Translations under genes and position numbers: made by a program
Shown: piece after piece, positions 1 to 44,325 of the stretch
How positions within the stretch are numbered: the first letter of the stretch is position 1
How the letters are laid out: each line of letters starts with the position of its first letter
The notes under the pieces: model-generated
Told to the model about the DNA's origin: nothing
The model's input: only the letters and a program-made list of their open reading frames with translations
The model's database searches: none
Assembly (NCBI GenBank): GCA_019915015.1
Contig: JAHBBC010000004.1
Coordinates: 1,054,001-1,118,000 of the forward strand
Direction: 5' to 3'
From: Auriscalpium vulgare
Lineage: Eukaryota; Basidiomycota; Agaricomycetes; Russulales; Auriscalpiaceae
DNA: 64,000 nucleotides

Positions 1-3000
1 CCGTCCGATTACGATGAACGGACCGTCGTAACGGGGCAGCATCTTGCGGTCGAGCGATTTCTCGAACTGCGTGAAGCGCACCAGGACGAGGTCCCCTCGT
101 TGGAAGCCGTAATTCTTGATCGACACTTCGTGGTCGCGCTCGAAAATTAGAGCATCGTGCCGCCGCTTGTCGAACACCTTCGAGTGGAGTGTGCGGAGCT
201 GGGTGCGGCGCTTCTGTAGTGCGACAGCGCGTCGCGCGATTAAATCCGTGGTCGACAGTATTGAGTCGGGCGGTGGTAGGAGGTACGTCGCTTCGACGAT
301 ATCGAGGGGCATCAACGCCTGCGTGCCGGTCGCCGCGAAGTAGGGGGAGCAGCCCATACGCCTGCGCGTCGTGATCCTGTCCGCCCAGAATACCGAGTGT
401 GCGACCGCGGCCCACTTGCTCGCGTCACCGTTGGCGGCTTTGTACAAGGCCTGTCGGACGTCGAAATGTGATCGCTCTACGATTCCGTTGGATCTCGAGT
501 TATAACCGGAGATGCGGATGTGGTGCACGCCGTAATCTTCTTCGAGATGCTTCATCGCTGCCAGGTACGGCGTTCCGTTATCCGTTACAATTTCCCGGAG
601 CGCTCCCCAGCGACAGAGTACGTCCTCGAATATCCATCGTGCGAGCGACTTCGCGTTTTCCTGTCGCAGCATACGCCATTCTGGGAAGTGCGAGACCGAG
701 CACCTTCCTTGTACGATGTATTTAAAGCCCCGTGAAGCCGGCATGTGCATGGTATCAGCGTACATCTTGGCAAACAGCGGCGCCGGCGTCGCGACCGTTG
801 GGGGATCAGCACGTGCTTCACCTGCCGCACCTGGCAGATGTGGCACGATCGCACAAACCACGCGACGTCGCGGTCCATGTAGGGCCACCAAAAGCGTTCG
901 AGGAGAAACATCTTCGTCGGGTACGCGCCGCGATGGCCGACGTCGTCGTGGCACGCCTTCAGGGCTCCTATGCGGCGTTCCGGGGGCAGTACGAGTTGGT
1001 GTCGCCCCTGGGGCTCCTTGCGAAAGAGACTCGTGCCGTCGAGGAAGAACTCGGTGCAGTACCGCAGGAACGTCGCATACTCTTGGTCGGCTAGGCCTTC
1101 CGGCCGCTGGAGCGTGTTGTGCCATTCCCGTACTCGCACGATTCGTTCGTCGGCTTGCTGCGCCTTGATGTCGCGGTCGACGGCGTCGTAAGACAACTCT
1201 GTCGGGGCGGCCTGGGTAACGAACGTCGCGATCGCGGCCCTTGGGTGGTCGCGCGGATCCCCCGACCGTGGCCTTGTACTGCGCGGTACGTATGCGTTTA
1301 CGAGGTGAATAAATCCATACATGGCGTCGACCCAGTCCTCGAACCCGTCGTGCTCGTTTTCTGGTACGTCGCCCGGTTGGCGCCTTCGTCGTGACATCCC
1401 GTCAGGTCCATGAAATAGGCCGGGCACGTGAACGAGGACGAAATGGAACATTAGAATGGCAATAATCCACCGATTCATGCTGGCTGAGGGTTCAATATCG
1501 GGGTTGTCGAGCATGCCCTTAATGTAGCGTGCGTCGACTTCCACGACCATGTTCCGCACTCCGATGAGATATATCTTCAGCGCGCGGAGCGCCCGAAACA
1601 GGCCGTATAATTCTAACTTTGGTTGCGAAAAACGCGCCTCGCGATCGTTCAACGCGATGGACCCAAACCGTGCGTACCGACGCTTCTTGCGACTCTTCGG
1701 ATCGTCGGCGTCAGCCTGGCACAGCAAGAACCCGACCGCAATAGGAGACGTATCGACCGCGAGGATAACCGGTTCGCCCGACTGATAGTCGATCGGTTTC
1801 AGAGCTGGCGACTCCAGCAACGCGCTTTTGAGATCTTCCATAGCTGCTAACTGTTCCGCTCCGAATTCGAACGGCACATCTTTCCTTGTAAGGTGCGTGA
1901 GCGCATGCGCGCGATGTGCGAAATGGTGGATGAAGATCCTCAGCACCCCGACCGTCCCGAGGAACGCCCGTACATCAGACAGGTCTTGACATGGCCCCCA
2001 ATTCACAATCTTAGCCACCCGTTGTTCGTCGGGGATCCGCCCGTCCCTCGTGCAGCGGTGTCCGACCACGACAATTTCGGGCGCGCACAAAATAGTCTTC
2101 CAACCCGAAAACGTCCCGCCCGAATAACCCATGCGCTGTACGACGCGGTTGAGATTCTGAAAGTGTTCCCAGACAAATCGGCGGATGCCCTCGTTGTCAG
2201 CGATTGTCTCGTACTTCCCCTGGTCGTCCTTGTATTCGCTCGCGGGGCCCTTGACCGGTACGTCATCAATAAACGGTATCGTGACGTGGGGAATTTCCGG
2301 CCTCAGGATATGTGTGACGTCGTCGTGGAAGATAGGCACTGAATTCGTCCAGCCCATCGGTAGTGTTACCAACCGCAGCGCGCCGTAAGGGGTCTGGAAC
2401 GTAGTGAGGTCGCGCGACGCTGGGTCCAACGCTCGCTCGTCGTATCCGACGTACAGATCCAGCATCGCGCCGCAAGCCCGACCCGCGAATTGCTCGGCCA
2501 GTTGGTCGGTAAACGGGGGCACACCGGAATGAGCTATCGTGACGGCGTTTAACGGCTCCAGGCTGTGCACTATGCGCAGGCTCGTTCCATCCTTTTTGAC
2601 CACGCAGAACCACCGCGACCTATACGACGAATTGGATGGTTCGTAGACGTTCGCGGCCAACTTCCGACTGATTTGTTCCATGACTTGGTCGTAGATTCCC
2701 GGCGGGATCGGTATGTTGCGTTGTACCCATGGCGTGTGCGGTACGACGGGTATCGTGACCGGCGGAAAGAAATCTTCGCGGAAGTGGCCTCGCTCGCTGT
2801 CGTCCCACGCGAACGCACCGTTGTGCTCGCACATAAAATGGTGCATCAGCTTGCGTTCCTCCTTCCACAAGAAGTCCCCCTCGTGAACTACGTCGAATTG
2901 GTCGCGGCGCTCCTCGGTGTAACGCCCCGTCGGCCGGAAGTCGGGGGGCTTCGTCGGTAACTTGGGTAGTGTCGCTAGCGGGTCGCCTCGTATGTCGCGT

Positions 3001-3395
3001 ATGATTCTGAACTGCCCAGGCAAGTCGGCTAGTACTGGCTTCACTTTTAGGTGGGCGGGCTTATACTTTTTCTTGGTCGCTGCGAAAACCGCGCGTGCCC
3101 GCGCGCTGCTAGGCAACGACTTACAGTCGCGAAATTCCTGTTCGCCCGCGAACGAGGGCACCCCGGCTGGGGCGAGAAAGAAGACGGGCGCCGACGGAGC
3201 GTCCAAAGTCGCGTCTGTCGGCCGATTAAATATGGGAGGGGTAGATTCTGGGAGATCGCAAAATGATAGATAGGTTGCTCGTAACTCTTCCGGCGAACTA
3301 GAGGAGTCGAAGGGGACCACGGCTTCCACGGAAATAGGATCGGCGGCGTCGCCCGTGAACTCGAGGACGAGCGCCACTTCCGCCTGGTCGTCCAA
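1..3395 (-). pseudogene. pol polyprotein (RT, RNase H, integrase), frameshifted and partial
   Basis: This encodes the replication enzymes of the retroelement. The open frame 585-3395 (936 codons, first codon TTG) contains a reverse transcriptase of Ty3 type, with LPMGWTNS before an FIDD catalytic box in place of the usual YxDD. It continues with RNase H (AVDTSP, later VEVDA) and an integrase H2C2-type zinc region (CHDDVGHRG...CHICQVRQ). After LIPQ the frame degenerates near 797-803, where the minus strand has a run of five C. A frame one base away then stays open to position 1 and carries the integrase core: TDNGTPY and a Glu in GIVERSH, with 34 residues between Asp and Glu (DD35E spacing). 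One indel therefore separates the zinc domain from the core. The pol frame lies in the -1 phase relative to gag and is open across the gag stop. Confidence 0.85.
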
Positions 3396-3403
3396 CGACG
3401 CCT

Positions 3404-6400
3404 CTAGAGCCGAAAATCCCTGCGCTCGCCGGCGCTCTGAACGATGCGACGCGAGCCTCGCTCTACTGTCGGGACGGTCGCCGTCGCTTGAGTGTTGGGA
3501 TCGGTGATCGTGATGGTCTGTCGCTCATCTTCAAAGTTGCGGACTATACTCCCAGTGAGGACGTCGAAGGGCCTCCCTAGCAGGATGTCGTAGGCCGGAG
3601 AACGTATGACGTGTATCTGCACGTAGAGCGTAATGTCGCCTAGCTTTAGCGCTACGTTGCGGGCTAGCCCGAGGGATTTGTCAATCGAGCCGTTGGCGGA
3701 AAGCATGTCCAGTGTGATCGCGGGATCGTATGCTAGGCCGAGAAAATGGCAAACGTCCTCGGACATGGAGATGACCTGCGACCCTGGGTCCAGGATGGCC
3801 TCAATGTGCGCTTGGTTATCCACCAAGGGCAGGACCGCTCGCAATGCCGATGACTCCTTTGCGACCACCAGCGGGGCCGGTTTCTCGGCCGAGGCACTCA
3901 TCAACGTCAGCATCGGGTCGGAGAGCACTAGCGACCCGCGAGGCGGCACCGCTGGCTGGCTCTGTATGGCCTGCAAGAACGACGACGGCATGTGCGAGGT
4001 GTATCCCCGCGCTCGATCTCTCTCCTGCTCGCGCTCTTCCTCGTACAAGTCGCCGGGTAGGTCCGACCACTCCTTGGTAGGCCCTTCCCCTTCCGCTACG
4101 ACCGTGTGTAGGACCGCTACTGGGGAGTCCCCGCTGGACAGTACCGGGGCCGCTATGCGTCGCGGGGTGATAGCGTATCGCAACTGGGAGCGTACTTCTG
4201 GCGCCAGCGACAGTAACTCGCTCTGCGTCAGAGTGACGGAAGTCCCCATCGCGCGGCCGTAGACTTCCTTCGCGACCTCTTCACTATGGATGGGCGTGTC
4301 CTTGGTATAGGCGGCGACTGGCTTCTTCCCTTTGTCTGGTCGGGACGCGTCCCCGACGGGTATGTAGGTTGCGTCGGGTACGGAGGCAAACGGATGGATG
4401 GGTTCCGGCTCTATCTCGTTGGGGTCCTTCTCGACTGTCGGTTCGCCCTCGCTCGCTTCCCTCGCTTCTTCCGCATCCTCTGGATCTTCGGGCACCGCGA
4501 ACGTAACCTTCGACCGTTTTGCCGTGAATTTCGACGGGGATATCACCACCTCAGGGACTAGCTTCCTGGATCGCACTCTCTCCCCGGGCAGCGGCCCGAT
4601 TGGTGGCGGTAACTCTCCGTTGCGAATCGCAGCCTCCCTTCGGACCCGGCCGGCGTTCCTCTGCTCCTTCATGAGTGTTAGCACCGCCATCTCTTGACGC
4701 AACTCCTCTAGTCGCTCGTCGTCCGTCAATGGCGGGATTAACTGGATGAGCCCGGCGACGGGCTGGTCGCGCGCGGGTCGGAGTGGGTAGTCGGTGACAG
4801 CGATGGGGCCTGTCGATGCCAACATCATTGTTTCCGTCGCGTTGCCCGCGACTCTGGCCGCGACGTCGGCGCGCAGTCCGGACGGGTCCGTGCGATAATA
4901 TTCGTCTACCCTCGCTTGAATCGGGCCTAGCCCAAATGGCACTGGCCTGCCGCTCTTGAGTACCACCTGGTTCATCTCGTTGCGTACCACCCGCCCCGTC
5001 GCTATGTAGTCTTGCAGGACGAGGCATTCGCGGATGAAGTGCTCGGGGCCGTTGCAGAACGAGCACCTGGCGCCATCCTGTCCCGGGGCCGGGCGAGGAC
5101 GATCGAAACGAGCGGCCGACGCCATCATCGGGCCCGGTGGCCCGCGCGTGTACGCCGACGGCTGCGGGCCTGCGTTACTCATCCCCATCGCATCGGCTCT
5201 CCCCGCGCTATACGCTTTCGCGATCTGCTCGGCCGCCTTCTCCATCAGAGCGGCAAACTGCTCGACCTTGATCGCAGGTTCTTCCGCCTTGACGGCCACG
5301 GGTTGGGACAAGTCGGCCAGACCCGCGGGGACGCTGAGCCCTGCCGATCGCGGGGTGCTCGACGTGCCGTGCAGCACGTACCGCGCCGCTTCCACTATTT
5401 GGTCCATCGGGTACGGGCCGTCGCGATCGTGGTCGGGATACTTCAGCTGCAGCCGCTGCTCTATCCTATCTTGCAGTCCCTTCTGAAATCCACGCAAGAA
5501 AGTGTAGTCGCGGTCGCGCTCGGAGATACGCTGCCGCCCTATAAGAAACTGGGAGATCGCGTAGAAACCGCGATAGTATTCCCCAACGTCGCCGATGGTC
5601 GTGATGCCTCGGCGGGCTGTCTCGGCGACGAGCTGATCGAGGTCGCCCATCGTGTATTTGCGCTCCTCGTCCGCTCCGGGGTATAGCGCTATGATCGCGG
5701 TCACGAACTCTTCGAACGTCGCATTGCCCGCGTACTGGGGTCGGCTTTGCCACTGGTCTGCTGTAAGGACGTCCAGGTATCGCGTGGCGTGCTCCTTCTT
5801 CTCCTGGTCCTGGCCGTCCTCGATACCCGCCCGCGTGAACAAGTGCCTCAACTCCGCGAAATAGCGTTGCAGCTCGCGCGGCTTAAGATTGTCGAACTTA
5901 GGGGCTTGGCGATCGCCACGGGTAGGCATCGGAGTGGCCATGGTCGTGCGACGGGGTAAACGCGATAACGGAGTACTGGATTGCGATGTGGGAGAAACTG
6001 GTCGGGAAACCTGTGCGGCCGCTCCACGCCCGTCTCCTGATAAACCTCCGTGCGTTCCGACGTTTCCGCGGTCGGAAGCCGAGCGGTCGCTGTCGGAAGG
6101 CACCTGTGCCTCGTCTCGGTCCTCATCAATCAGCGCAGCCACTTCGGGCTCCGATTCCGACGGGGTAAGCTCCGGCGACGACCATTGTCGCATCGCTCCG
6201 CCAGTCAGCAACTCGATCGACGCCTCATTGACGTCCAGGAGCTCCTGATGGAGGGACCGTCTACCATCCCAACCGTGCTCCGACTCTTCCGATTGGACAG
6301 GGCCTGCCTCCGCGTTTTGATCGCCGGGAGCCTCGCCCGCAGCATCCCCGTCGTTCTCGGGTGCTGCGTCCGACACACCCGATGCCTCGCCGTCGTCGTT

Positions 6401-6586
6401 TTCGTTGTCGCCCTCGGCGCCTTCAGCGCTGGAAGTCGCGCGCTCTTCGTCCGACGCCCCACCTTCCGACGATGCGAGGTGTCCTGGCATGGACTCCGCC
6501 CGCTGACTGGTCGAGTACTCCGACGGGGCCGATCGGGGCGGTGCACGTCGAGTGGGCTCTACGATAACCCTCGCCTTTGGTGCCAT
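3404..6586 (-). CDS. gag-protease polyprotein of Ty3/Gypsy-like element
   Basis: A 1060-residue ORF starting at ATG 6586. The first ~200 residues are acidic and low in complexity. A helical capsid-like gag region follows (from FDNLKPRELQRYF onward), then a CCHC zinc knuckle CSFCNGPEHFIREC at about residues 507-520. A basic, charged linker leads to a retropepsin-like protease near the C-terminus, with the active-site motif ILDPGSQ (Asp near residue 933) and a downstream ILLGRPF strand. Having the protease on the gag ORF, with pol in another frame, implies recoding or independent initiation for pol. The gag stop (TAG, 3404-3406) overlaps open pol frame. The ORF itself looks intact. Confidence 0.88.
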   Translation of the reverse strand: MAPKARVIVEPTRRAPPRSAPSEYSTSQRAESMPGHLASSEGGASDEERATSSAEGAEGDNENDDGEASGVSDAAPENDGDAAGEAPGDQNAEAGPVQSEESEHGWDGRRSLHQELLDVNEASIELLTGGAMRQWSSPELTPSESEPEVAALIDEDRDEAQVPSDSDRSASDRGNVGTHGGLSGDGRGAAAQVSRPVSPTSQSSTPLSRLPRRTTMATPMPTRGDRQAPKFDNLKPRELQRYFAELRHLFTRAGIEDGQDQEKKEHATRYLDVLTADQWQSRPQYAGNATFEEFVTAIIALYPGADEERKYTMGDLDQLVAETARRGITTIGDVGEYYRGFYAISQFLIGRQRISERDRDYTFLRGFQKGLQDRIEQRLQLKYPDHDRDGPYPMDQIVEAARYVLHGTSSTPRSAGLSVPAGLADLSQPVAVKAEEPAIKVEQFAALMEKAAEQIAKAYSAGRADAMGMSNAGPQPSAYTRGPPGPMMASAARFDRPRPAPGQDGARCSFCNGPEHFIRECLVLQDYIATGRVVRNEMNQVVLKSGRPVPFGLGPIQARVDEYYRTDPSGLRADVAARVAGNATETMMLASTGPIAVTDYPLRPARDQPVAGLIQLIPPLTDDERLEELRQEMAVLTLMKEQRNAGRVRREAAIRNGELPPPIGPLPGERVRSRKLVPEVVISPSKFTAKRSKVTFAVPEDPEDAEEAREASEGEPTVEKDPNEIEPEPIHPFASVPDATYIPVGDASRPDKGKKPVAAYTKDTPIHSEEVAKEVYGRAMGTSVTLTQSELLSLAPEVRSQLRYAITPRRIAAPVLSSGDSPVAVLHTVVAEGEGPTKEWSDLPGDLYEEEREQERDRARGYTSHMPSSFLQAIQSQPAVPPRGSLVLSDPMLTLMSASAEKPAPLVVAKESSALRAVLPLVDNQAHIEAILDPGSQVISMSEDVCHFLGLAYDPAITLDMLSANGSIDKSLGLARNVALKLGDITLYVQIHVIRSPAYDILLGRPFDVLTGSIVRNFEDERQTITITDPNTQATATVPTVERGSRRIVQSAGERRDFRL

Positions 6587-7019
6587 CGGGTTGCTGAGCG
6601 GTTGACACTAGCCCCCTCGCGGTGGGCTCCACAAATGATGAGATGAACCCTGGGGGAGGCCCCGGGAACGTCGATAGAAATGGAGGGAGCGAGCAGCCAA
6701 CCGCTGGCCCAAGAGGTAGTGGGTCGGAGGAAGAAACCCAAGATCGCGACCGTGCCCCGAACAAACCACCCAGGACCCCGCGGGTCCTGCCCTCGTCCTG
6801 CGGCCCTCTCCCTCTCTCTCTCTCTCTCCGCTCCCGTCCGACCGTCGCACGTTGCGTCTCTTCCCACACTATTCGGTGCGACCCTCCCGTCTGTCGCCGC
6901 CGGTCCGTCCTAGTTGCGGAGTCGCCCTTGCCGTCCGACCGTCCGACCTGTGTCCCCGCGCTTGTACCGTCCGAGTCGCTATCCTGGAATATAAACGTCA
7001 GTCATAAAACCTACCACAC
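6587..7019 (-). other. retroelement leader with candidate primer-binding site
   Basis: Untranslated stretch between the candidate LTR and the gag start. Three bases inside the LTR edge, the minus strand reads TGGTAGGTTTTAT (7004-7016), a possible tRNA primer-binding site since such sites begin with TGG. I could not match it to a specific tRNA. A CT-rich microsatellite lies around 6806-6830. Confidence 0.35.
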
Positions 7020-7861: not shown

Positions 7862-8772
7862 GTGAGGTGGAAGGGAGGGAGCGCCGCGAGTCAGCGCGTC
7901 GCGGTACGGGTCGGGACGAAGTAGGCGCTCGGCAGGGATTTTGACACGCCGAGGGGAGTAGTCTTGGGGGCTTATGTACCCGTCCCGCTACCAGCAATAT
8001 CTTTCTTAGTGAGTGCTAAAGTACGATCATCATTGTCCTTGTGATCATGAGTACCGTTGTCCTTTGGTTGTTCATCGTTGACGTTAAGCCATCAGTGCAG
8101 GAATTGGACAGTGTGTTGGCGCGCACAGCCAGAAGGTAAGCACCATACCTTCCTGCCATGCTGATCGCACTCGTATTTCCCAGCCCTTCGTCATCTGTTG
8201 ACCCGCAACGGATTGTCGTCAAAGTTGCACTGTCCGTCCTCAATGAGTCCGCGTTTTTCACCATCGTCATGATGCGCTCGTCGCTGATCAGCATGAATCA
8301 GACGACGGTCGAGAACATCTCGGTGTGCTCCATGAAGCAGCGCGGCAGTGGTATGTTGGGGGACGTTACTCCTGATGGAACGTCTCGCGCCTCCTTAATC
8401 TGCCGCGTCGAGCAGGGTCTGGCTCTGCAGAGCGAAGCGCCGCACGTTGGTGGGCCCGCATGGGCAGGACCGGCGACGTGCGCCTCGGCCTGTGGACGTT
8501 GTTCCGTGTTTTCTCGTCTTGCTTGTCAGTGCACACCTGTGCAAGCTAACGGGAGCGGACAGTGCCACAACGCCGTGCCTCAAGCCATACCTGATTCTCC
8601 GCACAGCGTCGCCATCCGCGTGTGTTCGGTGAAGGCGTTGGCCCGGTCGATACGGTCTTGGGGCTGTTCCGAGGTTTCGCTTATGGTCGCTGTATGTGAT
8701 TCCCACGCTTCCCGAAAACGTTGCAATGCCGAACGCACTCGGCGCAGTAGTTCTGGGTGCAGGAGGGTGCAG
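7862..8772. other. no supported gene
   Basis: Short overlapping open frames occur on both strands, but none has recognisable motifs, consistent splice structure or a credible start. Nothing further is supported. Confidence 0.5.
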
Positions 8773-8890
8773 GCTTTGCCGACAATGAACGGCCCGGTCC
8801 AAATTTCTGCGCGGGCTTAGCCGACAATAAAAGGCCTTCTGCATGTCCAAATTTCTGCACGGGTTTCGCCGACAATGAAAGGCCTTTTAG
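8773..8890. repeat. short tandem repeat, three units
   Basis: GCCGACAATRAAAGGCC-type units begin at 8778, 8820 and 8868 (spacings 42 and 48), separated by TCCAAATTTCTGC followed by a GC-rich hinge. The first unit has an ACGGCCC variant. Confidence 0.75.
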
Positions 8891-9172
8891 ACATCTAAAT
8901 CATTGTACCGCTTTCATATAATCTCGTCTGCCGTCCGCGCCATCCGTCCCACCATCTGAGCTCTCCATCACCACCAACAAGCCCCGACGCCACTGGAAAC
9001 ATGAGCGACGGTGCCACGATCGATGCTGTCGAAAGGTGCGTTGTATTACTTAGCATAGCATTCTTGCAGTCCCATCTAACTGTGACGCCTTGTAGTCGAC
9101 AGGGCATTGCTGCGAGCGTGGCTTTTTACATGTCAAAATCATGGTACCGCTTTTATAACCTCGTCTGCCACC
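8890..9172. repeat. dispersed direct repeat pair of about 45 bp
   Basis: The sequence around 8890-8933 (AAATCATTGTACCGCTTTCA then ATCTCGTCTGCC) recurs in diverged form at 9126-9172 (AAATCATGGTACCGCTTTTA then CCTCGTCTGCC). No gene is seen between or after the copies up to 9959. Confidence 0.6.
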
Positions 9173-9959
9173 AGAAGCTAGGATCTGGGGTATATGGCAA
9201 TGCAATGGCCATGGGGTCCTCACTGGCCCAAGACCCCGCCAGCTCGTCGTCAATTGGACAGCCCCGGCCGATTGTACGTGATGCTTAAGGGCACAGTGGA
9301 ATTGATTTGCAGTACAGTAGTACATCATATCCTGTTATGAAATCGGTTATGACATTAATCGTGGATAAAAGTAGACTGAGGATGACTCGGAGTCACTTCA
9401 GCCTTTCCGTGCACTCCACTGACAACACCCCCCTCGATGAGCAGAGACGACTAGCAATGGAGACGGCGATGGATCAATGACGAGATCATCCAAACTGAAA
9501 GCTGTGATGGTGTCATGGTGAGCAGGTACGTAGACCAACACGTCTTGTCTGCTGAAAGTCAGATTCCCCGCCGTTTATTATAACGCTGAGATATGATGCG
9601 GTGATGTGTGAGAGGGCAGGGTTGATATGTACTTATCCGGCGGCGGGCCTTCGTGTGTTAAGGGATTGGGCATGGTAGGAGCCATTGGTCGCCAGAGGTG
9701 CCCACGCATCGTGCGCAGTCACTAGTCACTCGCACTTGAGTTGATGCATCTCTCTCTGACAGGAGCTGCAGCCCTTGCTCGCCGTGCTCGGATGCCGTAG
9801 TGATGCACTGTATAGTACGCATGTACATAGTCGCTGAGTGCATGGTAGGGAAAAAGTACGCACGGAGACCGTCCATGCTCTTATACCTCCGCTGGCGCCT
9901 GGCATTCGCATCGCAGCGGTCGCTGGCGCATCTCTCCCTAGGCCATGTTGCCCCTTGTT
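9173..9959. other. no supported gene
   Basis: Only short frames without motifs are present. The sequence leads into the tandem repeat block at about 9960. Confidence 0.5.
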
Positions 9960-10815
9960 GCCCGCGCCTAACCACCTTTCGCACCCTTCTCTCGAGGTCC
10001 TTCGACGGCTTCAAGTCGCACGAGCCGTGTGTACTGTGGTACTCGAAGCCGTTCGCCCAGTGCTTGTTGGCCTTGTTGCAGTTTGGTTGGACAGGAGCAA
10101 GGAGAGGGTAGGATGCGAGAGCGTCGTGGACGTGGAAGAGGAGGCCTTCAAGTTCGAGGTCCTTCGACGGCTTCAAGTCGCACGAGCCGTGTGTACTGTG
10201 GTACTTGAAGCCGTTCGCCCAGTGCTTGTTGGCCTTGTTGCAGTTTGGTTGGACAGGAGCAAGGAGAGGGTAGGATGCGAGAGCGTCGTGGACGTGGAAG
10301 AGGAGGCCTTCAAGTTCTAGATCCCGGCTTGCGCGGGTTCCGCTTGGCCCTGGCTTGGCCCAAGCCGCTGCATCTCTCCTTTCGTCATGTTGCCCGCGGC
10401 CTCACCGCCGTCCACACCCTTCTCTGCGAGCAGGCTCACGACCCTATCGAGTTCCTTCGACGGCTTCAAGCACGAGCCGCGTGCACTGTGAACCGTGGTA
10501 CTTGAAGCCGTTCGCCTGCTTGTACGACTTTTTTTTTTGCAGTTTGGCTTCGGGCAGCGAGGGACAGGAGCAGGCGCATGGTGCGAGAGCGTTGCTCGTG
10601 CCCTCGCCGCCGTTCACATCCGTCTCTGCGAACAGGCTCGCGACACTCTCGAGGTCCTTCGACGGCTTCAAGTCGTACCGAGCCGTGTGTCCTGTGGTAC
10701 TCGAGGCCGCTCGCCAGCTTGTACGACTTTTTTGCAGTTTGACTTCGTGCAGCGGAACGGCTTGGACAGGAGCAAGGAGGGCGCGGGGTGCGAGAGCGGT
10801 CTGGTCACCGGAGTG
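9960..10815. repeat. tandem repeat block, 162-bp unit plus two diverged copies
   Basis: Two nearly identical 162-bp units begin at 9993 and 10155 (CGAGGTCCTTCGACGGCTTC). Because 162 is a multiple of three, an open frame on the plus strand (9838-10320) repeats a 54-residue unit. Two diverged copies follow near 10449 and 10648, with T-rich runs (about 10531 and 10727) inserted at the same relative place. I read this as non-coding repeat rather than a gene, since frames are open on both strands and no known motif appears. Confidence 0.8.
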
Positions 10816-11305
10816 AAGCAGCCTTGCTGAAGACAGCTGGTGTGTCGTCTCTCGTTGACCTGCTGGGACATTCCTGCTAAACAAAAAGCAGATTTTTTGT
10901 CAAAATGTAGCAGGTGAGTGGGTTACATGTTTGTAGCATTTAGAAAACTACCGTCATTGGAACATTTGTGTGGCCTATGCAATATGTGTCGGAGGATAGA
11001 TGGACGTTGTGCGCGTATATCGGTGAGTGTTTGTACGACTCATGAGGATCTGATGTGTAGGATCTGTAAGTAGGATGGCCTGCTGGTTGGTTAGAAAGCA
11101 CATGCGGTCGTGATTCCTGAGGAAAGGAGTGCAAAGTGAGTATCTGAAACAGCAATATCGTTAAACTTATGTTATCAGCAGGACCGATATAAATGCAGAT
11201 CGAACGTATATTGCAAGGTATGCGATTGTATACGCTCATGGTTGGACGTTGGGTGTTTGACGGCTACGGTGGAGAGCGCATGGGATGGGTCGGAATCACT
11301 AGGTG
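10816..11305. other. no supported gene
   Basis: A comparatively AT-rich stretch between two repeat blocks. No coding signal is seen. Confidence 0.5.
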
Positions 11306-11640
11306 ATCTAACCCACGCCGCCTGCGGCTTGCTCATGCGAACAATATGTGGCGACATAGGAGATCTGTGGGGTGAAAATCAATTAGATTTTAGGTGAGTG
11401 TGCCCGCTTGGTTGATGCATGATGCGCTTACGATTGCTCTTTCAGCTGCGCTGCCCATGCGAAGGATATACGGCGGTATAGGAAGATGTGAGGTGAAAAT
11501 CAATTGGATTTTTCAGGTGAGTGCGCCCGTTTGGTTTGCATAATGCGCTCACGGTCACTCTTTCAGCCGCGCTGCGGCCTGCGGCTATCTCAAGTTGAAG
11601 ATGAAGTGGCAATATAGAAGATATATGCGGTGAAAAACAT
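11306..11640 (+). repeat. tandem units resembling small exon-intron modules
   Basis: Units of about 121-137 bp share GGTGAAAATCAATTRGATTTT followed, in the first two, by a GTGAGTG donor-like site (11394 and 11517), an about 50-nt spacer, and CTCTTTCAG acceptor-like ends (11445 and 11566). A third copy begins near 11568 and has lost the donor. The exon-like parts carry no recognisable protein. Confidence 0.6.
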
Positions 11641-12029
11641 TCCTGTGTATTGAAGGAAGGGCGACTTACAGGCGAGTGCGATGAAGCATATGAGATGATT
11701 AGGCGTACAGCTCATCGCATGCATAGGACGACGGCTTCTCCGAATGACGACCGATGCGGGGTGTCTGACGGTAGCAGGTTAGTCGGATCCGATCAAAGTA
11801 TACGAGCCGACTAACCGGGGTGTTGGGGCCGTCGAGCTCGTCAGCTTGTGAATTTACGGCTTTACGGTGCGAACGGGTGCTTACCGTGGGCGATGCACAA
11901 TGGGGAAGGTGAGTTACGATTCCTTTGAATCGTTGCTTATGTCATCTACATCCAGCATTTTTTCGACCCATGCAACGACAGTCTGTGTCGCCTTTTTTGG
12001 AAATACACTCCCACGCTATGTCTACTCGC

Positions 12030-12445
12030 ACTTTCAATGCTCCCTCACGATTGCTCATAATGATCACATGAATTGTTGCAAATACAGTAATTACAAAACC
12101 ATGTAATGCCTACAAATGATACATAAGAGTGATATTGTCGAGATTGACAGCATGAGTAGTGTGAAGATGATGACATCATTCCGGGTTTTAAATTGCATTT
12201 AAAACCCGGAATGATGTCATTGCTTAGTAATAGGCCTCGCACTCTGACTTTCCACACTCCCTTGCTTTTGCTCAGAATGATCACATGAATTGTTGTAAAT
12301 GCAGCATTCAGCAAACCTTGCAATGCTTACAAGTGATGCAGAATAGTGATATTGTAGTGATTGCATAGTGTAAAGACAATGTCATCATTCCGGGCTTTAG
12401 ATGCAATTTATAACCCGGAATGATGTCATCACTCTTAGTAATAGG
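12030..12445. repeat. 217-bp direct repeat, two copies each with a hairpin
   Basis: The TGATCACATGAATTGTTG segment occurs at 12061 and 12278 (period 217), and the similarity continues through TAGTAATAGGCCT. Copy 1 contains a perfect hairpin with 23-bp arms (12170-12192 and 12198-12220) around the 5-nt loop TTGCA. Copy 2 has a decayed version at 12379-12428 (core TCATTCCGGG / CCCGGAATGA). The form suggests a small inverted-repeat transposable element or a structured RNA. Confidence 0.8.
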
Positions 12446-13015
12446 CCTGGCACATCTGCCCATACCAAAGTAGCCCGTAGCGCAGCCCGAGATATGTGCT
12501 TCGCCCACCGCTGTCCAGTGCATTGCAGGGCGAGCGGCCCAGTTGCATAGCAGTGTCACACAGTGCAGCAGGGGCTCTGCCCTGAATGCTCTAAGTAGTC
12601 ATTATATTCATCCAATGTACCTGCAATAGATATATGTAATATAAAAGAAATTCTAGAGAAATCTGAGTCCAACTGAGAGTGGAATCGTACCGCCGTGCTG
12701 CGCACCGGCCCACTCCCAGCAAGTTAACTGTTTGATAAGTCCCCAAGATATCCCGGTCGTGAATAAAGGCGTCGTGAACTACGAAGATACTAAGGTACGA
12801 GCAGGAAATCAACAGTGAGGATGACCGGGTTGATAGCGCGTCAGACCGATAGAAACTGATTAAGTATAGGTTGAAGAAGATCTGAAAGGTGTCCTTATGT
12901 GCGATGGAGGAAGAGGTAGACGAAAGGCAGTAGTAAGTGACCGTGCGCGGCACATGTGTTGTGCTACGTCGCTGTTTCAGCTTCCGCCGGATCGCGCTTT
13001 TTACCTCGTACGATC
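12446..13015. other. intergenic, upstream of the homeodomain gene
   Basis: No gene is supported. The last ~120 bases before ATG 13016 would contain the 5' untranslated region of the homeodomain gene. A minus-strand frame at 12591-12953 has no motif support. Confidence 0.45.
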
Positions 13016-16000
13016 ATGTCAGATCGCACGCTCGACTTTACTTCCTTTGCTGAACATCTCCCTCTGTTCGAGCAAGTATGGGACGATGCCGGAGCCGCAG
13101 TTTCAACTGGAGACTTTCCAGGCTGGATAGGTCAAGGAGTTTCCCATAGCGGTGAGTACGGTGGTGCTTAACAGAAGGAGATGGACTGACCGACGGAGTC
13201 CGTCATCATAGTCTATGGGGCGCATGATTGTGTCCGTTTCCTCACATACACCGCCGACGATTCTCTATGTCCTCAGGACGAGGGGGAAATTGGAGGCCCC
13301 GCTTGGACCGGCGATCATCCTCTTGCGGAGGGTAACGTGCTTCATCATAAATCCGACTTTGTGCTCGACTACGGTACGTGCATGCTGTGCTGTTCAGACC
13401 CGCAGACTGACCAGAGAAAACTTCTAATCATGTAGACGCGCCGTCGCAAACGGCGGCGTTGCGGTTGTTCGACCGCGATGTCGTCGGATTGTTCGGCTAT
13501 CCCCAGCTCTCTGAGCAGGAGATCATTCCCAAACCCATCCCCAGCTATTCTATCGACCTGCCACAGCTCGGGCAGACCACATATTTCGGCAGGAGTTCGA
13601 TTGCGACAGCCGATGGCTGTAGAACGATGGAAAACGAGATGTTGCTCTCCTTAGCGAATAGCGCCGCAATTCCTTCCGCGGACGACATCGCTTTCCCTCT
13701 CACAACGCACACACCGATCGAACATACCTTTCCTTTTGCGGGCTCATTTATCAAGTCGGCAAGCCATCACACAAGTTATTATCCGAGCGTCCAGGATCTT
13801 CATCTTGCCGTCGATCCTCCGTTGGGCGATGTCGATGGCCATCTCTCGAACTCGAAGGCGTTCACGACTTCCGTCTCTTGTGTCCGAGCACAACACGATG
13901 AAGGGTCATTAGAATGTCTAGAACCCATGCCTCCGAATTTAGATGCAGGAGCTATCGGAACTCCTGGCGTCTCCTCTGCACATGTACAACCGCTACTTCC
14001 CCTACCGGGCCCGGGACGGCCGTCCACCGCTACACGTCTCGGTACCGCCCCCACAGCGTACTACTCCACCGACCTTGCTCTCGGCGATTTCCCGGGCGGA
14101 AGACCTGGATTGGGCGGGATTCGCGGGCTCAGCGATTATTTATCCTCTCAACACCCTCATGGTGAACGCGCCCGTGAGCCGGCGCACCCCGCCGCCGCCG
14201 CACTTCAGCCACCCGCCGCACACGCAGGCCTCGGCGGGCCCGCCTTCCAACCCGGAGATGCAGGAGAACTTGGCGCATCCGGATACGACTCTCCCTTTTC
14301 CTTCCACGCGCCGGCGCTCGCCGACCGACCCGCTGCATCCGTCCCTCGACCTTTCCCAGGAGACGATGATGCCGCACTGGAGCGCCTTGGCGCTGGGGGC
14401 GACGGCAGCGAGTCAGCCGCTCGATCTCGGCCGCTCTCCAGCAATGCCGCCGATGCAGATGCAGCAACTCGACCATTTTTACCAATTCCAGAGGCAGCGG
14501 GAGCAGGCGGCGCACCAGCATCAAACGAAATCGACGGCACGGTCATCAATGACCTCACAAAATACGCGCGATCTCGGGACCCCATTGCCAACGAGGTCAA
14601 GAAGAAGCGCAAGCGTGCCAATCAGTCTCAGCTAGAAGTGCTGATCAAAGCCTGCCAAAGTAACGCAATGCCGTCGACGGAGGAGCGTGTAGCTTTGGCG
14701 CAGGAATTAGACATGTCGGCGCGTAGTGTTCAGATCTGGTGCGGGCCCATCTTCCCATCTACCTTCATTGTAACTCACTGGAACCGTAGGTCTCAAAACC
14801 AACGCCAATCACAGAAGAAAGAGAGGGCGCACCAAGTGGACTGTCGCGTCACCAATCTCGCAGGCCGCTTCCCAGGAGACGATGATGCCGCAGAGCGCCT
14901 TGGGACTGCTGGGGGCGACGGCAGCGAGTCACCCCATCACTCTCGGCCGCTCTCCGTCATGGAGCTCACCGATGCCCCTGCAGATGCTGCAACTCGCCCA
15001 TTCCTTCCAATTTCGATGGCAGCGGGAGCAGGCGGCGGAGGCGGCGCACCGGCATTAAACGAAATCGACGTCACTGACCTCACGAAAGTCCTTGCGAACG
15101 ATTTCAACAACTCCATTATCTGTGATCCAACTTCCCATAATCAAGTTGACGACAAGCTTATACTTGCATGGATGAATCCACTTACTCCGAGTGAAGTGGT
15201 TCGTCTGGGAGAGGATTGTCTGGGAGAGGATTACGTGCCGAGGCTGCAAGATCCAGACGTCGTAGAGCACGGCGTTTATACTGAAGACGATCTACCTCGG
15301 TTTGCAGAAGAGTTCCCACAACGTCTGTCGCCAGGTCAGGCTTGTCTCAATTGTTTTCGGGATAGACGTAGGGTGAGTGTACTCGTATAATGTGAACATC
15401 TAGATCTACGAGCTAACTGTGGGCATATATAATGTAGTGTAGCGGAGGTCGACCAGAATGCAGCAGGTGTTTGAAACAGCACAGGGTGTGTCAATACCCG
15501 GTTTCTCTGACTCGCGAAGAGCATCGCAAGAGAGGGATATTTATCCTTGATTGTCATGCATTTCATGCAACCAGCTTTGAAGAGTCGAGAGGACCTGGGG
15601 GTCTTGGTAGTCACCGAATTGAGAAGATGATGTCTGACCAGGATACTCTCTGTGCGTGTTCTGACTCCGCTTTCGCGATTCCCGCTCACGTCCCCCAATG
15701 CTTTCCAGATTCTCCACGGCCGACATCTCAGATAGGCCATCATGATGCGTCGGTTGAAATAACGACGCCCGTCGGGAGCGGTGCTCAGCTGCCCTGCACG
15801 CGAGCTCGGGACCCCATTGCCAACGAGGTCAAGAAGAAGCGCAAGGGTGCCAAGCGCAAGCGTGCCGATGAGTTTCAGCTAGAGAAGCTGATGAAAGCCT
15901 TCCAACGTAACGCGAAGCCGACGACGGTGGATCGTGAAGCGTTGGCGAAGAAATTAGACATGTCGGCGGATAGTGTTCACAACTGGTGCGGGCCCATGTT

Positions 16001-16188
16001 CCCAGCTGCTTATTGTAACCCACTGGAAGCGTAGGTTTCAAAACCAACGCCATTTACGGAAGAAAGCACGCCGTGTCCTCAGTGCCGGCCCCGCGACTAC
16101 TCGCGACAAACCCGCTGGTCTTCGCACATCCGGCGTTGGTCATCCATACCCCTCGAGTGACGCACCCGCCTTACCTTATCCTGGGTGA
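13016..16188 (+). CDS. homeodomain - Zn2Cys6 - homeodomain putative transcription factor
   Basis: Model: exons 13016-13151, 13212-13373, 13436-14738, 14790-15372, 15438-15985 and 16035-16188. All introns are GT-AG with matching phases, giving 961 residues. Homeodomain 1 is at about residues 490-548: typical 60-residue form, VQIW|SQNQR across intron 3, F20 replaced by C and F49 by S. A zinc cluster with six cysteines at 719, 722, 729, 736, 739 and 746 (CX2CX6CX6CX2CX6C) is interrupted by intron 4 immediately before the third Cys. Homeodomain 2 is at about 868-927 (LMKAFQRN, VHNW|FQNQR across intron 5), with W48, F49, N51 and R53 kept. Both homeodomains follow the same RDPIANEVKKKRK lead, so they arose by duplication. 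The N-terminal ~380 residues are unfamiliar, and residues ~300-480 are Ala/Gly/Pro-rich with a second open frame. Expected nuclear DNA-binding protein. The main doubt is whether all exons belong to one transcript. Confidence 0.72.
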
Positions 16189-17595
16189 GCGCCGGGTATG
16201 TTATGTAGCTACAGATGGGCACTTAACGGGAAGCTCAACGCGGAATGCCGTATCGAATTCCCCTCTGTGGGCGAGTTGCGTATTTGTCCAGGCCCCAGAA
16301 AGTAGAATATGTGGTAGAGAGCCAGGAGCGCGGTTCTCTTTCCTCATCCGGATATCGTGTGGATAGTGTGACGTGACCGTAGTAACGGACCGTAGTCACC
16401 CTAATGGTTCTCTGATCCACCGAACCCCCGCGACGAGCGTCCGCCATCGAGCACCCTTCGACGAGCAGCGCTGAGACGATGCTACATGGTCTATGAAACG
16501 GTCGCATAGGCCTGGAAACCTATATGGCGACTGGCCAGTACCCGGCGGACTCCGAGAGGCTTTAAAATCGCAACCCTCCGGCAACACCTGGCTACTCTTT
16601 TCCCGACCTACACTTGTACTTTTTGCCTCTTTTCAAGCAGCTCGTGTGGCATAGAGTCAACTCAAAACTCTCGTTCTCACGACACATACTTATTCAACCC
16701 CACAGTGGGGTTTCACCCAATGCGGCCGCGGTCGCGACCCGCCGCGATCCGATCGTCCCAGAGGACTGCACGCTCTCAAGGGCCTGGACGTCCGATCTTC
16801 ATTGAGATTCATCTAGTCTTCGTAGCTTGACCTTAAAGGTATTGGCTAGATGGTACTTAGTCGCTCTGAATATAAGATTCATCAGGAGAACAGTCAGAGT
16901 TCCAGGGCTCCAGCAGATTCTGTCACATTGAATCCTGTTTCTACTGTGACGAGTTAGTGGCGAGAGGCTAGATGACATGGGTGTCTCGTGACTGGCGAAG
17001 GTCTTCCAATATCTCCACCAAAAGCATCGTGTACGTGACTGCAAACAGAATGAAGAAGACGTAAACAAAGGCGAGAGTAACGGTACAAAGGATCCGTATG
17101 AAGGCGCACACGATTGTGGCCAACATGCGGGCAATCCTATTCACTAGAGCAAAGGTCGTCGTCAGTCGTTGTGATTGCGAGCATCATACCACACACCGGT
17201 ATCCAAGGCCCCCTCCGCCCTCTTCTGCCGCATTTCTTGGTCCCTGTGAGAAGCCGAAGCCGGAGATGCGAACCTGACGCACAGAGCCGTCGGGCTTCAT
17301 TGACGTGACAAACACAGTTAATACCATCGTAAGCCACGCCCCATTCATAGGTGTGCCATCTTGTTCAACTTCTTCTGCCATGTATGATGATTGTGAGGGA
17401 CAGAAGGGGACAGAAGGGGCTGAACGATACATCACCTTTATACGCCACATGCATAACCTATTCCTTTGTGCACTGCTCGCTCGCCAAATTCCGAGATTGG
17501 TCGCGTCGCAAGCGCGACGCGCGTACAGTGGCACATCTCCATCGTATAAAGCCTAATCGGAGCCCATCGACTTTAGTGTCACTTGTCCATCGATC
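16189..17595. other. intergenic with two dispersed repeats
   Basis: No gene is supported. The stretch contains one copy of the ~100-bp dispersed repeat (16672-16785) and one copy of a ~60-bp repeat (16814-16885) that recurs near 54.7 kb. Short open frames have no motifs. Confidence 0.5.
16672..16785 (+). repeat. dispersed repeat family, copy 1
   Basis: Contains GTTCTCACGACACA, CCCCACAGTGGGGTTTCACC, AATGCGGCCGCGGTCGCGAC and GTCCCAGAGGACTGCACG. It matches the copies at 18957-19046 (inverted) and 19812-19918. Confidence 0.75.
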
Positions 17596-41938: not shown

Positions 41939-42058
41939 TCCGCACGCCACATACAAGTATTGTCGTCCCTAGAGCCGCGTCGGTGCCTGTACTAAAGCAG
42001 CTATAAGCAGCCGTAAGAACTTACACGCATCACAGAAGCTACCCCTCCCGCGTCCCCC

Positions 42059-43098
42059 ATGGCCGACGCCCGTGGCCAGTCCGGCGACCCCGACGACGGC
42101 CACCTCGACTTGTCACCCACATCCGATGCAGTCCACCCTGAGATGACCATGCATCCCGTCTTTCCCGCCATCCCCTTGCACATGTACCCCTTTGCCAACG
42201 GTCTCACGCCCCAGATGCATTCCAAGCGCAGGCAGGTCAAGAACGCCTGCACAAACTGCCAGAAGGCCTGCAAGAAGTGCGACGAGGCCCGCCCCTGCCT
42301 CCGCTGCGTCAAGTACGGCATCGGCGAGGAGTGCGTAGATTCCCAGCGCAAGGAGCGCAAGAAGGGAATCAAGCGGGGGCCTTACCGGAAGCGGGGGCCT
42401 TACAGGAAGCGCGATAGAAAGAGTAAGTTGTCACCCCCTTCCAATACCGTCCCGCCGTTGCGCGCGCATATTGACTCTCGGTCTGATAAACCAATCGTGC
42501 AGCCACCAACGTCGAGCAGCCGCTCGACGCCGCCGCCGTGGCCGTGCATCAGGGGGTGCCCACGGCGAGCCCTCCGCCCCAGGTGCCCTACATGGGCTAC
42601 CCCCCGGGCTACTACGGCCAGCCTTACGCTGCCCCCATCGCGACTCCCGCGCCCTCCAAGCCTGGCGAGGCGCACGCTGCCCCCATCGCGACTCCCGCGC
42701 CCTCCAAGCCTGGCGAGGCGCACGCGTACTACCCGCACCCGCACTCCCAGTATTACGTCCCGCTGCAGCACCCCCAGCAGCAGCAGCAACCTTTCCCACC
42801 GCCGCCTCCCATCCATGAGCAGCAGCCGGACAACGTGGCCTACTACGCGCCGCCACAGTTCTACCCCGGCCCGTTCATGCCGCCGTACGCCAAGCCACAC
42901 CCGTACAATTACATGATGCCACAGCCGCGCCAGCGCCCCGACCACATGCCGCCCATGTACCAGAAGCCGCATCCGGGCGCGCCGGGGCAGGACGTGGTGG
43001 GGTATGCATCGGATGCATATGGGCAGTGGTCGGCGCGAGGACCATATGGTTGGAAAGGCACGTCTGAAGAACCGCGACATTGTAAGATTAGAGAATGA
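42059..43098 (+). CDS. Zn2Cys6 fungal transcription factor
   Basis: Two exons, 42059-42422 and 42503-43098, over an 80-nt GTAAGT...CAG intron in matching phase, giving 319 residues. The zinc binuclear cluster is KNACTNCQKACKKCDEARPC then LRCVKYGIGEEC (six cysteines, CX2CX6CX5CX2CX7C), followed by RKERKKGIKRGPYRKRGPYR, a basic tail in which KRGPYR is duplicated. The rest is Pro/Tyr/Gln-rich with an exact 17-residue tandem repeat (AAPIATPAPSKPGEAHA). The cluster-plus-KRGPY arrangement is one I associate with a conserved basidiomycete factor family. Targets are unknown. It is nuclear by inference. Confidence 0.8.
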
Positions 43099-43769: not shown

Positions 43770-44325
43770 TTAATGCCCAAGTGCGAGTTTATATCGTGCG
43801 CAGGACGTTCGGACGCGGGAAAGCCTTCTCGCAGAGCTTGCAGTGATGCATCTTGAGCTTTGCCTGCTTCCAAGGGCCCCGCCGAGATTGAGCGGGTGAA
43901 TCCTTGCCATCGCCCACGACGGTCCCAAGGCGCCCTGCGGCACCGCTTGTGGGGGGCGGATGTCGGAGAGCGTCAGCTGGTGCGAGGGAAAGGGAGAGTC
44001 GTATCTGGATGCGCCAAGTTCTCCGGGCGAGACGGGGAGGGACCGTCGTGTGGCCCCGGCTTCGCGACCTGCTGCTGGACACGATGCGGTCATCAGGGAC
44101 ACTTGGATGCGCTCGAGGTGTCGCTGGATGCGCTCGAGCGCCGACAGCAGCGCGGTGCCGCCGCGCTCGATGTGCTTCGCCTCTCATCTGGAGCTGCGAG
44201 GTCGACTTGCAGTGGCTGCGGAGGGTGGAAGGCTTTGTGGACCGCGTCGTGGTGGGAAGGAAGTGGGATTGTTGAAAATCGCAACATGAAACTGCTAGAT
44301 CCCTTGTGTTCGTATCGACCAGCAT
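43770..44325 (-). pseudogene. C2H2 zinc-finger gene remnant
   Basis: One minus frame ends KQAKLKMHHCKLCEKAFPRP then NVLRTI-stop. This has the CX2C half and the phenylalanine of a C2H2 finger but lacks the histidine pair. Another minus frame upstream reads GELGASRYDSPFPSHQLTLS and DIRPPQAVPQGALGPSWAMA. The two frames overlap, which suggests a lost junction or frameshift. The same DNA (GAGAACTTGGCGCATCC and GCGCCTTGG blocks) is present inside exon 3 of the homeodomain gene near 14.26-14.40 kb. Confidence 0.45.

Follow-up and report, generated by a model that had tools for sequence, protein, structure and literature searches.

How a single fungal gene could come to encode two homeodomains (HDs) with a Zn2Cys6 cluster between them is the question raised by a locus of Auriscalpium vulgare at positions 13016–16188 of the window, by which we mean the whole 64,000-nucleotide (nt) stretch analysed here, C4:1054001–1118000 (assembly GCA_019915015.1, contig JAHBBC010000004.1). 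Contigs are cited as C1, C4, C12, C13, C22, C63 and C66, the two homeodomains as HD1 and HD2 in order of position, and the genome searched comprised 51.63 Mb in 96 contigs. We consider the locus to be probably one protein-coding gene, a young chimera formed by DNA-level duplication and fusion within a small transcription-factor family on C4, with a product that would read DNA as proposed below. What can be read directly from the genome is how the reading frames run, where the linkers and homeodomains come from, where the junctions lie, which further copies exist and which residues have changed in HD1 and HD2.

The spliced model has, as an earlier note on this DNA proposed, six exons and five GT-AG introns (60, 62, 51, 65 and 49 nt), and yields 2886 nt and 961 residues with no internal stop. 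A Pfam scan of the spliced protein bears out both homeodomains and the cluster that the note had named, with two stretches of PF00046 (88.5 bits in all; cut-off 22.9) and PF00172 at residues 717–754 (26.8 bits; cut-off 21); scored singly, HD1 reaches 51.0 bits, HD2 57.4 and the cluster 33.2. The cluster, C-X2-C-X6-C-X6-C-X2-C-X6-C at residues 719–746, agrees with the six-cysteine pattern of PF00172 (CX2CX6CX5-12CX2CX6-8C), and its halves are united only by splicing of intron 4. One uninterrupted open reading frame (ORF) of 659 amino acids (aa), at 13411–15390, runs through exon 3, intron 3 and exon 4 and takes in HD1 as far as W48, linker 2 and the half of the cluster before intron 4; another of 198 aa, at 15438–16034, covers the remaining half of the cluster and HD2, again as far as W48, so that intron 4 alone is needed to chain HD1, cluster and HD2. 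In first-order Markov simulations the frame from 13436 to 15372 stayed open in 0 of 5000 runs, whereas that of exon 4 taken singly did so in 59 of 20000. Outside support for the introns comes from a paralogue described below (B), which has the intron inside the cluster at the same place, and from the annotated A. vulgare homeobox protein P0001, which lacks intron sequence exactly at W48|F49. The claim that the join is real, the cluster being completed by the splice, thus holds at the level of reading frames. Intron 3 (51 nt) is itself open, and its retention would place 17 extra residues in the recognition helix of HD1 with the frame unchanged. Provided that it represents one transcript, the predicted spliced model is a dual-specificity transcription factor, that is, a single protein with at least two DNA-binding domains of different classes.

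The key to the nature of the gene lies in a repetition within it. The HD1 block recurs as the HD2 block with 81% identity across 270 aligned nt, the W48|F49 intron included, and a linker of 196/214 nt that precedes HD1 is repeated before the cluster (76% identity). Two paralogues on the same contig each contain part of the arrangement. Paralogue A (C4:877.9–879.7k) has the N-terminus, linker 1 and a single HD, and matches the window at 88% over 12724–13520 and 95% over 13629–14868, where the match stops exactly. Beyond that point A reaches a stop within five codons, and its later DNA still matches a homeobox gene on C1 (23 of 26 nt, E 5e-4); the ending of A therefore looks ancestral and that of the window gene derived, through loss of the 3' end and gain of linker 2, although the match concerned is short. 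Divergence between A and the window is uneven, at 95 substitutions/kb in the 5' flank and exon 1, 3.5/kb over 13986–14560 and zero within intron 3, a pattern suggestive of a recent conversion or exchange event involving both genes.

In paralogue B (C4:985.1–987.0k) the N-terminus and a single linker lead straight into the acidic segment and then into a Zn2Cys6 cluster that keeps all six cysteines; none of the 24 PF00046 matches in the genome lies at the B locus. Linker 2 of the window gene matches B at 96% over 51 nt. The shared N-terminus was found in the genome search at no site besides the window gene, its copies, A and B. Further along B a second Zn2Cys6 cluster (23.3 bits) ends at a stop; joining it to the first would need an extra intron of 116–155 nt, for which four alternatives would serve, and two clusters within one B gene are possible. 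Two other Zn2Cys6 clusters lie about 1 kb apart at C4:926–929k (38.8 and 39.3 bits), with an intron at the same place in each, and these too may belong to one two-cluster gene.

The donors of the linkers and homeodomains are present in the same genome. Linker DNA matches C22:781.9–782.5k at 84% over 556 nt and, for linker 2, at 86% over 189 nt; this donor is an 828-aa ORF that also encodes C2H2 fingers. Relative to that ORF, linker 1 is shifted in frame only from 14208 and linker 2 throughout. B has the same frame change, and as B and the window differ by about 13% there yet share the shift, it is unlikely to be a base-calling error. The homeobox gene at C1:1688.5k matches the HD of A at 79% over 184 nt and HD2 at 75% over 146 nt, the start of the intron being included in these HD matches, with a further 82% over 62 nt just upstream of HD2. 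Some sources name the family of the C1 protein YOX1/YHP1, and P0001 agrees with the C1 gene at 387 of 389 compared residues, gaps aside. A second A. vulgare homeobox protein, P0002, apparently carries part of its N-terminal region twice and has a divergent HD. For the Zn module no donor was found in the genome search: the nearest clusters outside the family, at C4:927.8k and its C63 counterparts, are 44–48% identical over 33–40 residues, and C13, tried as a source, gave a weak match (34%, E 0.07) in a stretch with no visible cluster and was rejected.

Elsewhere on C4, two other fragments of the C2H2 gene were seen, one at C4:1097962–1098024 (window 43962–44024, minus strand; 86% over 63 nt, in a 213-aa ORF) and one at C4:1180415–1180537 (80%, at the end of an ORF), which is a second possible chimera; the ORF that holds the latter resembles a WD40 coatomer subunit.

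The complete arrangement, 5' flank included, recurs at C4:934–937k (inverted) and at C63:13.7–16.9k, and another, incomplete copy is cut off where C63 ends. The C4:934–937k and C63:13.7–16.9k copies are identical over 3589 nt, and the window copy differs from both at 5 of 3589 nt. The limits of copying differ between relatives, being 9762–14868 for A, 9369–15733 for B and 8594–16310 for the recent copies. Carriage by a transposon would be expected to leave common element ends and, for most classes, target duplications flanking the copies. Helitron capture was considered as a means of copying and is possible but not supported: the copy ends disagree, and by eye no shared element ends were seen among the copies, no dedicated Helitron search having been made. 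In Pleurotus ostreatus, helitrons are said not to be prone to capturing fragments of host genes (PMC4289320).

We propose that the gene was assembled by fusion. An A-type gene, comprising an orphan acidic N-terminus, a linker from the C2H2-finger gene and an HD from the YOX1-like homeobox gene, would have lost its last codons and stop and been joined in frame at 14868|14869 to a B-type linker, acidic segment and Zn2Cys6 cluster; near 15733–15745 the B-type sequence passes into a second copy of the HD.

The duplicated homeodomains have since fared differently. As intact we counted an HD with the core residues F20, W48 and F49 and the contact residues N51 and R53, in conventional homeodomain numbering. 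HD1 has undergone only two coding changes relative to the HD of A, at residues 506 and 535, where the window gene has C20 and S49 and both A and C1 have F; both changes are in the core (hypergeometric 0.034). HD2 retains all five residues. At 18 of 57 positions it departs from A and C1 alike, always outside the 11 core or contact positions (hypergeometric 0.009), and its changes include R43D, Q46H, I47N and Q54H. Both probabilities were computed after the data had been seen and use a conventional core set. HD1 looks damaged. By sequence HD2 is a regular homeodomain, with DUX4 as its closest solved structure, and the cluster has Gal4-class spacing, a basic loop and a loop proline, with GAL4, PUT3, LAC9 and Pho7 as its closest solved structures.

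If a protein is made, its working unit is likely to be the acidic N-terminus, the Zn cluster and HD2. Acidic stretches with aromatic residues are typical of acidic activation domains, and both residues 1–100 (net charge -15) and residues 633–716 (net -11) are of this composition; the acidic N-terminus and the second segment may thus activate transcription. DNA would be read mainly by the cluster together with HD2, HD1 being weakened or dead, and the suggestion in the earlier note that all three modules could recognise a composite site is made doubtful by F20C and F49S in HD1 relative to A. The predicted target is a composite site in which a CGG half-site, as bound by the Gal4 class, lies near an AT-rich homeodomain core, the core preference of HD2 having perhaps been altered through I47N and Q54H. 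An activator docking on such sites by cluster and HD2, with HD1 dispensable, is the most likely mode of action.

Table 1. Coordinates of the chimeric gene, its modules and junctions, and the associated insertion and copied unit (window positions).
Feature	Position	Strand	Remark
Exon 1, acidic N-terminus	13016..13151	+	spliced model; common to A, B and A. vulgare P0121
Exon 2	13212..13373	+	spliced model
Exon 3: N-terminal region, captured linker 1, HD1 to W48	13436..14738	+	
Linker 1, from C2H2-finger gene C22:781.9-782.5k	13964..14523	+	donor frame to 14207, shifted from 14208
HD1, residues 487-546, spliced over intron 14739-14789	14596..14826	+	F20C at 14654 and F49S at 14792 relative to A
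Intron 3, W48|F49, 51 nt	14739..14789	+	open if retained
Exon 4: HD1 end, linker 2, acidic segment, first half-cluster	14790..15372	+	
Fusion junction: A-like sequence ends 14868; linker 2 (matches B and C2H2 donor) starts 14869	14868..14869	.	
Linker 2, second piece of C2H2-finger gene	14869..15054	+	frame shifted throughout
Acidic segment, residues 633-716, net charge -11	15085..15336	+	
Zn2Cys6 cluster, residues 719-746, split by intron 15373-15437	15343..15491	+	
Exon 5: second half-cluster, spacer, HD2 to W48	15438..15985	+	
Second junction, in exon 5: B similarity ends ~15733, C1 homeobox similarity starts 15745	15733..15745	.	
HD2, residues 864-923, spliced over intron 15986-16034	15843..16071	+	
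Exon 6 and stop codon	16035..16188	+	
Insertion, 805 bp, window copy only, multicopy repeat family	11917..12721	.	AGTTA target duplication (5 bp)
Unit common to C4:934k and C63 copies, minus insertion	8594..16310	+	C4 copy compared up to window 8613

The surroundings of the gene are rich in repeats. The 805-bp insertion has eight other full-length sites at 99–100%, among the 113 matches listed, and contains two near-perfect palindromes. Upstream of the gene, imperfect tandem repeats at 9989–10798 are shared with A and B. Elsewhere in the window, 585–6607 (minus strand) holds overlapping ORFs of 979 and 1067 aa that look like a long terminal repeat (LTR) retrotransposon polyprotein, and 42017–42916 (plus strand) holds a further Zn2Cys6 gene (cluster 26.8 bits).

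Relatives of the whole protein are scarce. Nothing at E<=0.01 was found with the full 961-residue protein among 8000 scored candidates, the low-complexity linkers probably having crowded the word list. A second search with a linker-free composite query (both searches being capped and limited by protein length) gave 38 matches at E<=1 among 7996 scored, with P0121 alone spanning a sizeable part of the query (31%), the other 37 covering 7–21% and belonging to homeodomain families. P0121 (FA95DRAFT_1682584) is a 435-aa A. vulgare model with the same orphan N-terminus fused to the same C2H2-derived linker, 47–49% identical to the window protein and B; it differs from them in having no Pfam domain and in keeping the linker in the donor frame throughout. 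At high identity it was not found in this genome, where the best match to its N-terminus is 57%. The YOX1/YHP1-like basidiomycete proteins (C1 gene, P0001), the source of both HDs, have the same W48|F49 intron, whereas the C1 gene has a single HD, lacks a cluster and is otherwise unrelated except for the 62 nt upstream of HD2. The earlier note had looked to Polyporales for comparison, which does not fit, as the likely HD donor gene matches Auriscalpium vulgare, a member of the Russulales. Proteins of the Gal4 class share the features of the cluster given above; in the window protein, by contrast, the cluster belongs to the C-terminal half and has an HD on either side, and PF04082 has no match. 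With DUX-type proteins the window protein shares two HDs per protein as well as the structural match of HD2, but this is general homeodomain similarity, DUX proteins having no cluster and a separate origin.

The claim that no described regulator has this domain order stands in part. No regulator in which paralogous homeodomains stand in the order HD–Zn–HD turned up in the literature covered, which excluded most subscription journals; the combination itself is already catalogued, proteins of a Zn_cluster+HD type being recorded in 35 of 191 fungal genomes, with up to three per genome and a type being recognised if represented in at least five genomes (Shelest 2017, PMC5415576). These resemble the window protein in joining a Zn2Cys6 cluster and a homeodomain in one predicted fungal protein, although the table in that paper gives neither the order nor the number of domains and its HD class is broad. 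The same paper also describes a comparable course, of domain gain, duplication and decay of one domain, for C2H2 and Zn cluster proteins of Aspergillus nidulans (PMC5415576). The present case differs in that two paralogous HDs flank the cluster and the intermediates A and B survive alongside, and the damaged module is HD1 here and a C2H2 finger there. The arrangement is therefore a variant of an already catalogued kind, and the record of its assembly is the more striking feature.

Several results weigh against a functional chimeric regulator. Selection was assessed by the ratio of nonsynonymous to synonymous substitution rates (dN/dS), using a counting method with codon bootstrap intervals. 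Beyond the N-terminus these ratios do not show purifying selection: the captured linker against B gives 0.87 (0.48–1.66) and the Zn part 0.77 (0.49–1.23), or 0.95 (0.48–2.39) up to the end of the cluster; HD1 against HD2 gives 1.66 (0.73–5.09), and the HD of A against HD2 gives 1.50 (0.73–5.71). Exon 2 of A has a frame break, its aligned gaps totalling four bases, and the 805-bp insertion ends 294 bp before the window ATG. Of the five differences between copies four are coding, and three of these four change an amino acid. The middle homology region, PF04082, is absent among the 7 Pfam families found at E<=1 in the spliced protein; it is absent from many Zn2Cys6 proteins. No protein with both an HD and a Zn cluster was found among the relatives, PF00172 occurring in none of the 38 composite-query matches.

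A serious rival explanation, if on the unlikely side, is accordingly that of a non-functional or decaying chimera, in which segmental duplication within repeat-rich DNA shuffled the pieces, the events are too recent for the frame to have closed and the product has no role. The core losses in HD1, the ratios not below one for the linker, the Zn part and HD1 against HD2, the frame break in A, the insertion upstream of the window copy and the C2H2-gene fragments elsewhere on C4 (1097962–1098024 and 1180415–1180537) all speak for it. It is opposed by the N-terminus, for which dN/dS against B is 0.55 (0.39–0.76), with an upper bound below one, and by the gap lengths in the coding alignment of the window copy with A: six of the nine are multiples of three, and the other three form one cluster in exon 2 of A. 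The absence of open frames from the simulations of 13436–15372, the six cysteines kept in B and the avoidance of core changes in HD2 also speak against it. Within the family, constraint is seen only at the N-terminus; comparison with the C1 HD gives 0.29 for HD1, 0.26 for the HD of A and 0.32 for HD2, all with upper bounds below one, and these values include the time before capture.

That the locus holds two overlapping or adjacent units, an N-terminal HD1 protein and a Zn–HD2 protein starting in exon 4 (for example at M592) that are fused only in the model, is improbable: the halves do stem from separate genes and exon 4 does contain methionines after HD1, but the 3' end of A with its stop codon is absent from the window and no stop in frame separates HD1 from the cluster. 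A MIP peptidase gene is linked to the mating-type A (MAT-A) locus, and the 16 PF01432 (peptidase_M3) matches in the genome lie on C12 and C3, with none on C4, on which basis that identity was rejected for the present locus. Very improbable altogether is a MAT-A homeodomain locus or an assembly artefact collapsing neighbouring genes, even though the strain, probably A. vulgare CBS 236.39, is described as dikaryotic, so that the C63 copy may be an allele from the second nucleus (PMC8401616), since all three copies, spread over two contigs, have these junctions in common, a finding that also disposes of the earlier note's concern that three separate genes had been collapsed here. One peptidase_M3 gene, at C12:1481380, has HD matches some 28 kb away, at C12:1509922 and 1511516; C12:1481380–1511629 is a probable MAT-A locus, and the same HD pair at C66:42367–44074 is its probable second copy.

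A young chimeric gene of this kind bears on how regulators with several DNA-binding domains originate, which is mostly inferred from old and blurred cases. Here the donors, the single-module relatives and the fused product share one genome and the junctions can be read to the base, while P0121, from another A. vulgare record, preserves the fusion of N-terminus and linker without a recognised DNA-binding domain. The gene also shows captured coding sequence being read out of its original frame within a predicted regulator. If expressed, it would allow a direct test of whether fusion brings a regulator composite targets and whether a duplicated homeodomain is afterwards altered or lost. More tentatively, the acidic N-terminus on C4 may be a scaffold that has been repeatedly refitted with parts copied from three classes of transcription factor, namely a linker of the C2H2 gene, a YOX1-like homeodomain and Zn2Cys6; the HD–Zn–HD gene would be the most recent outcome, in which HD2 has been re-specified while HD1 is being given up. 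Were this so, new regulators with new combinations of domains would be arising within a single fungal species.

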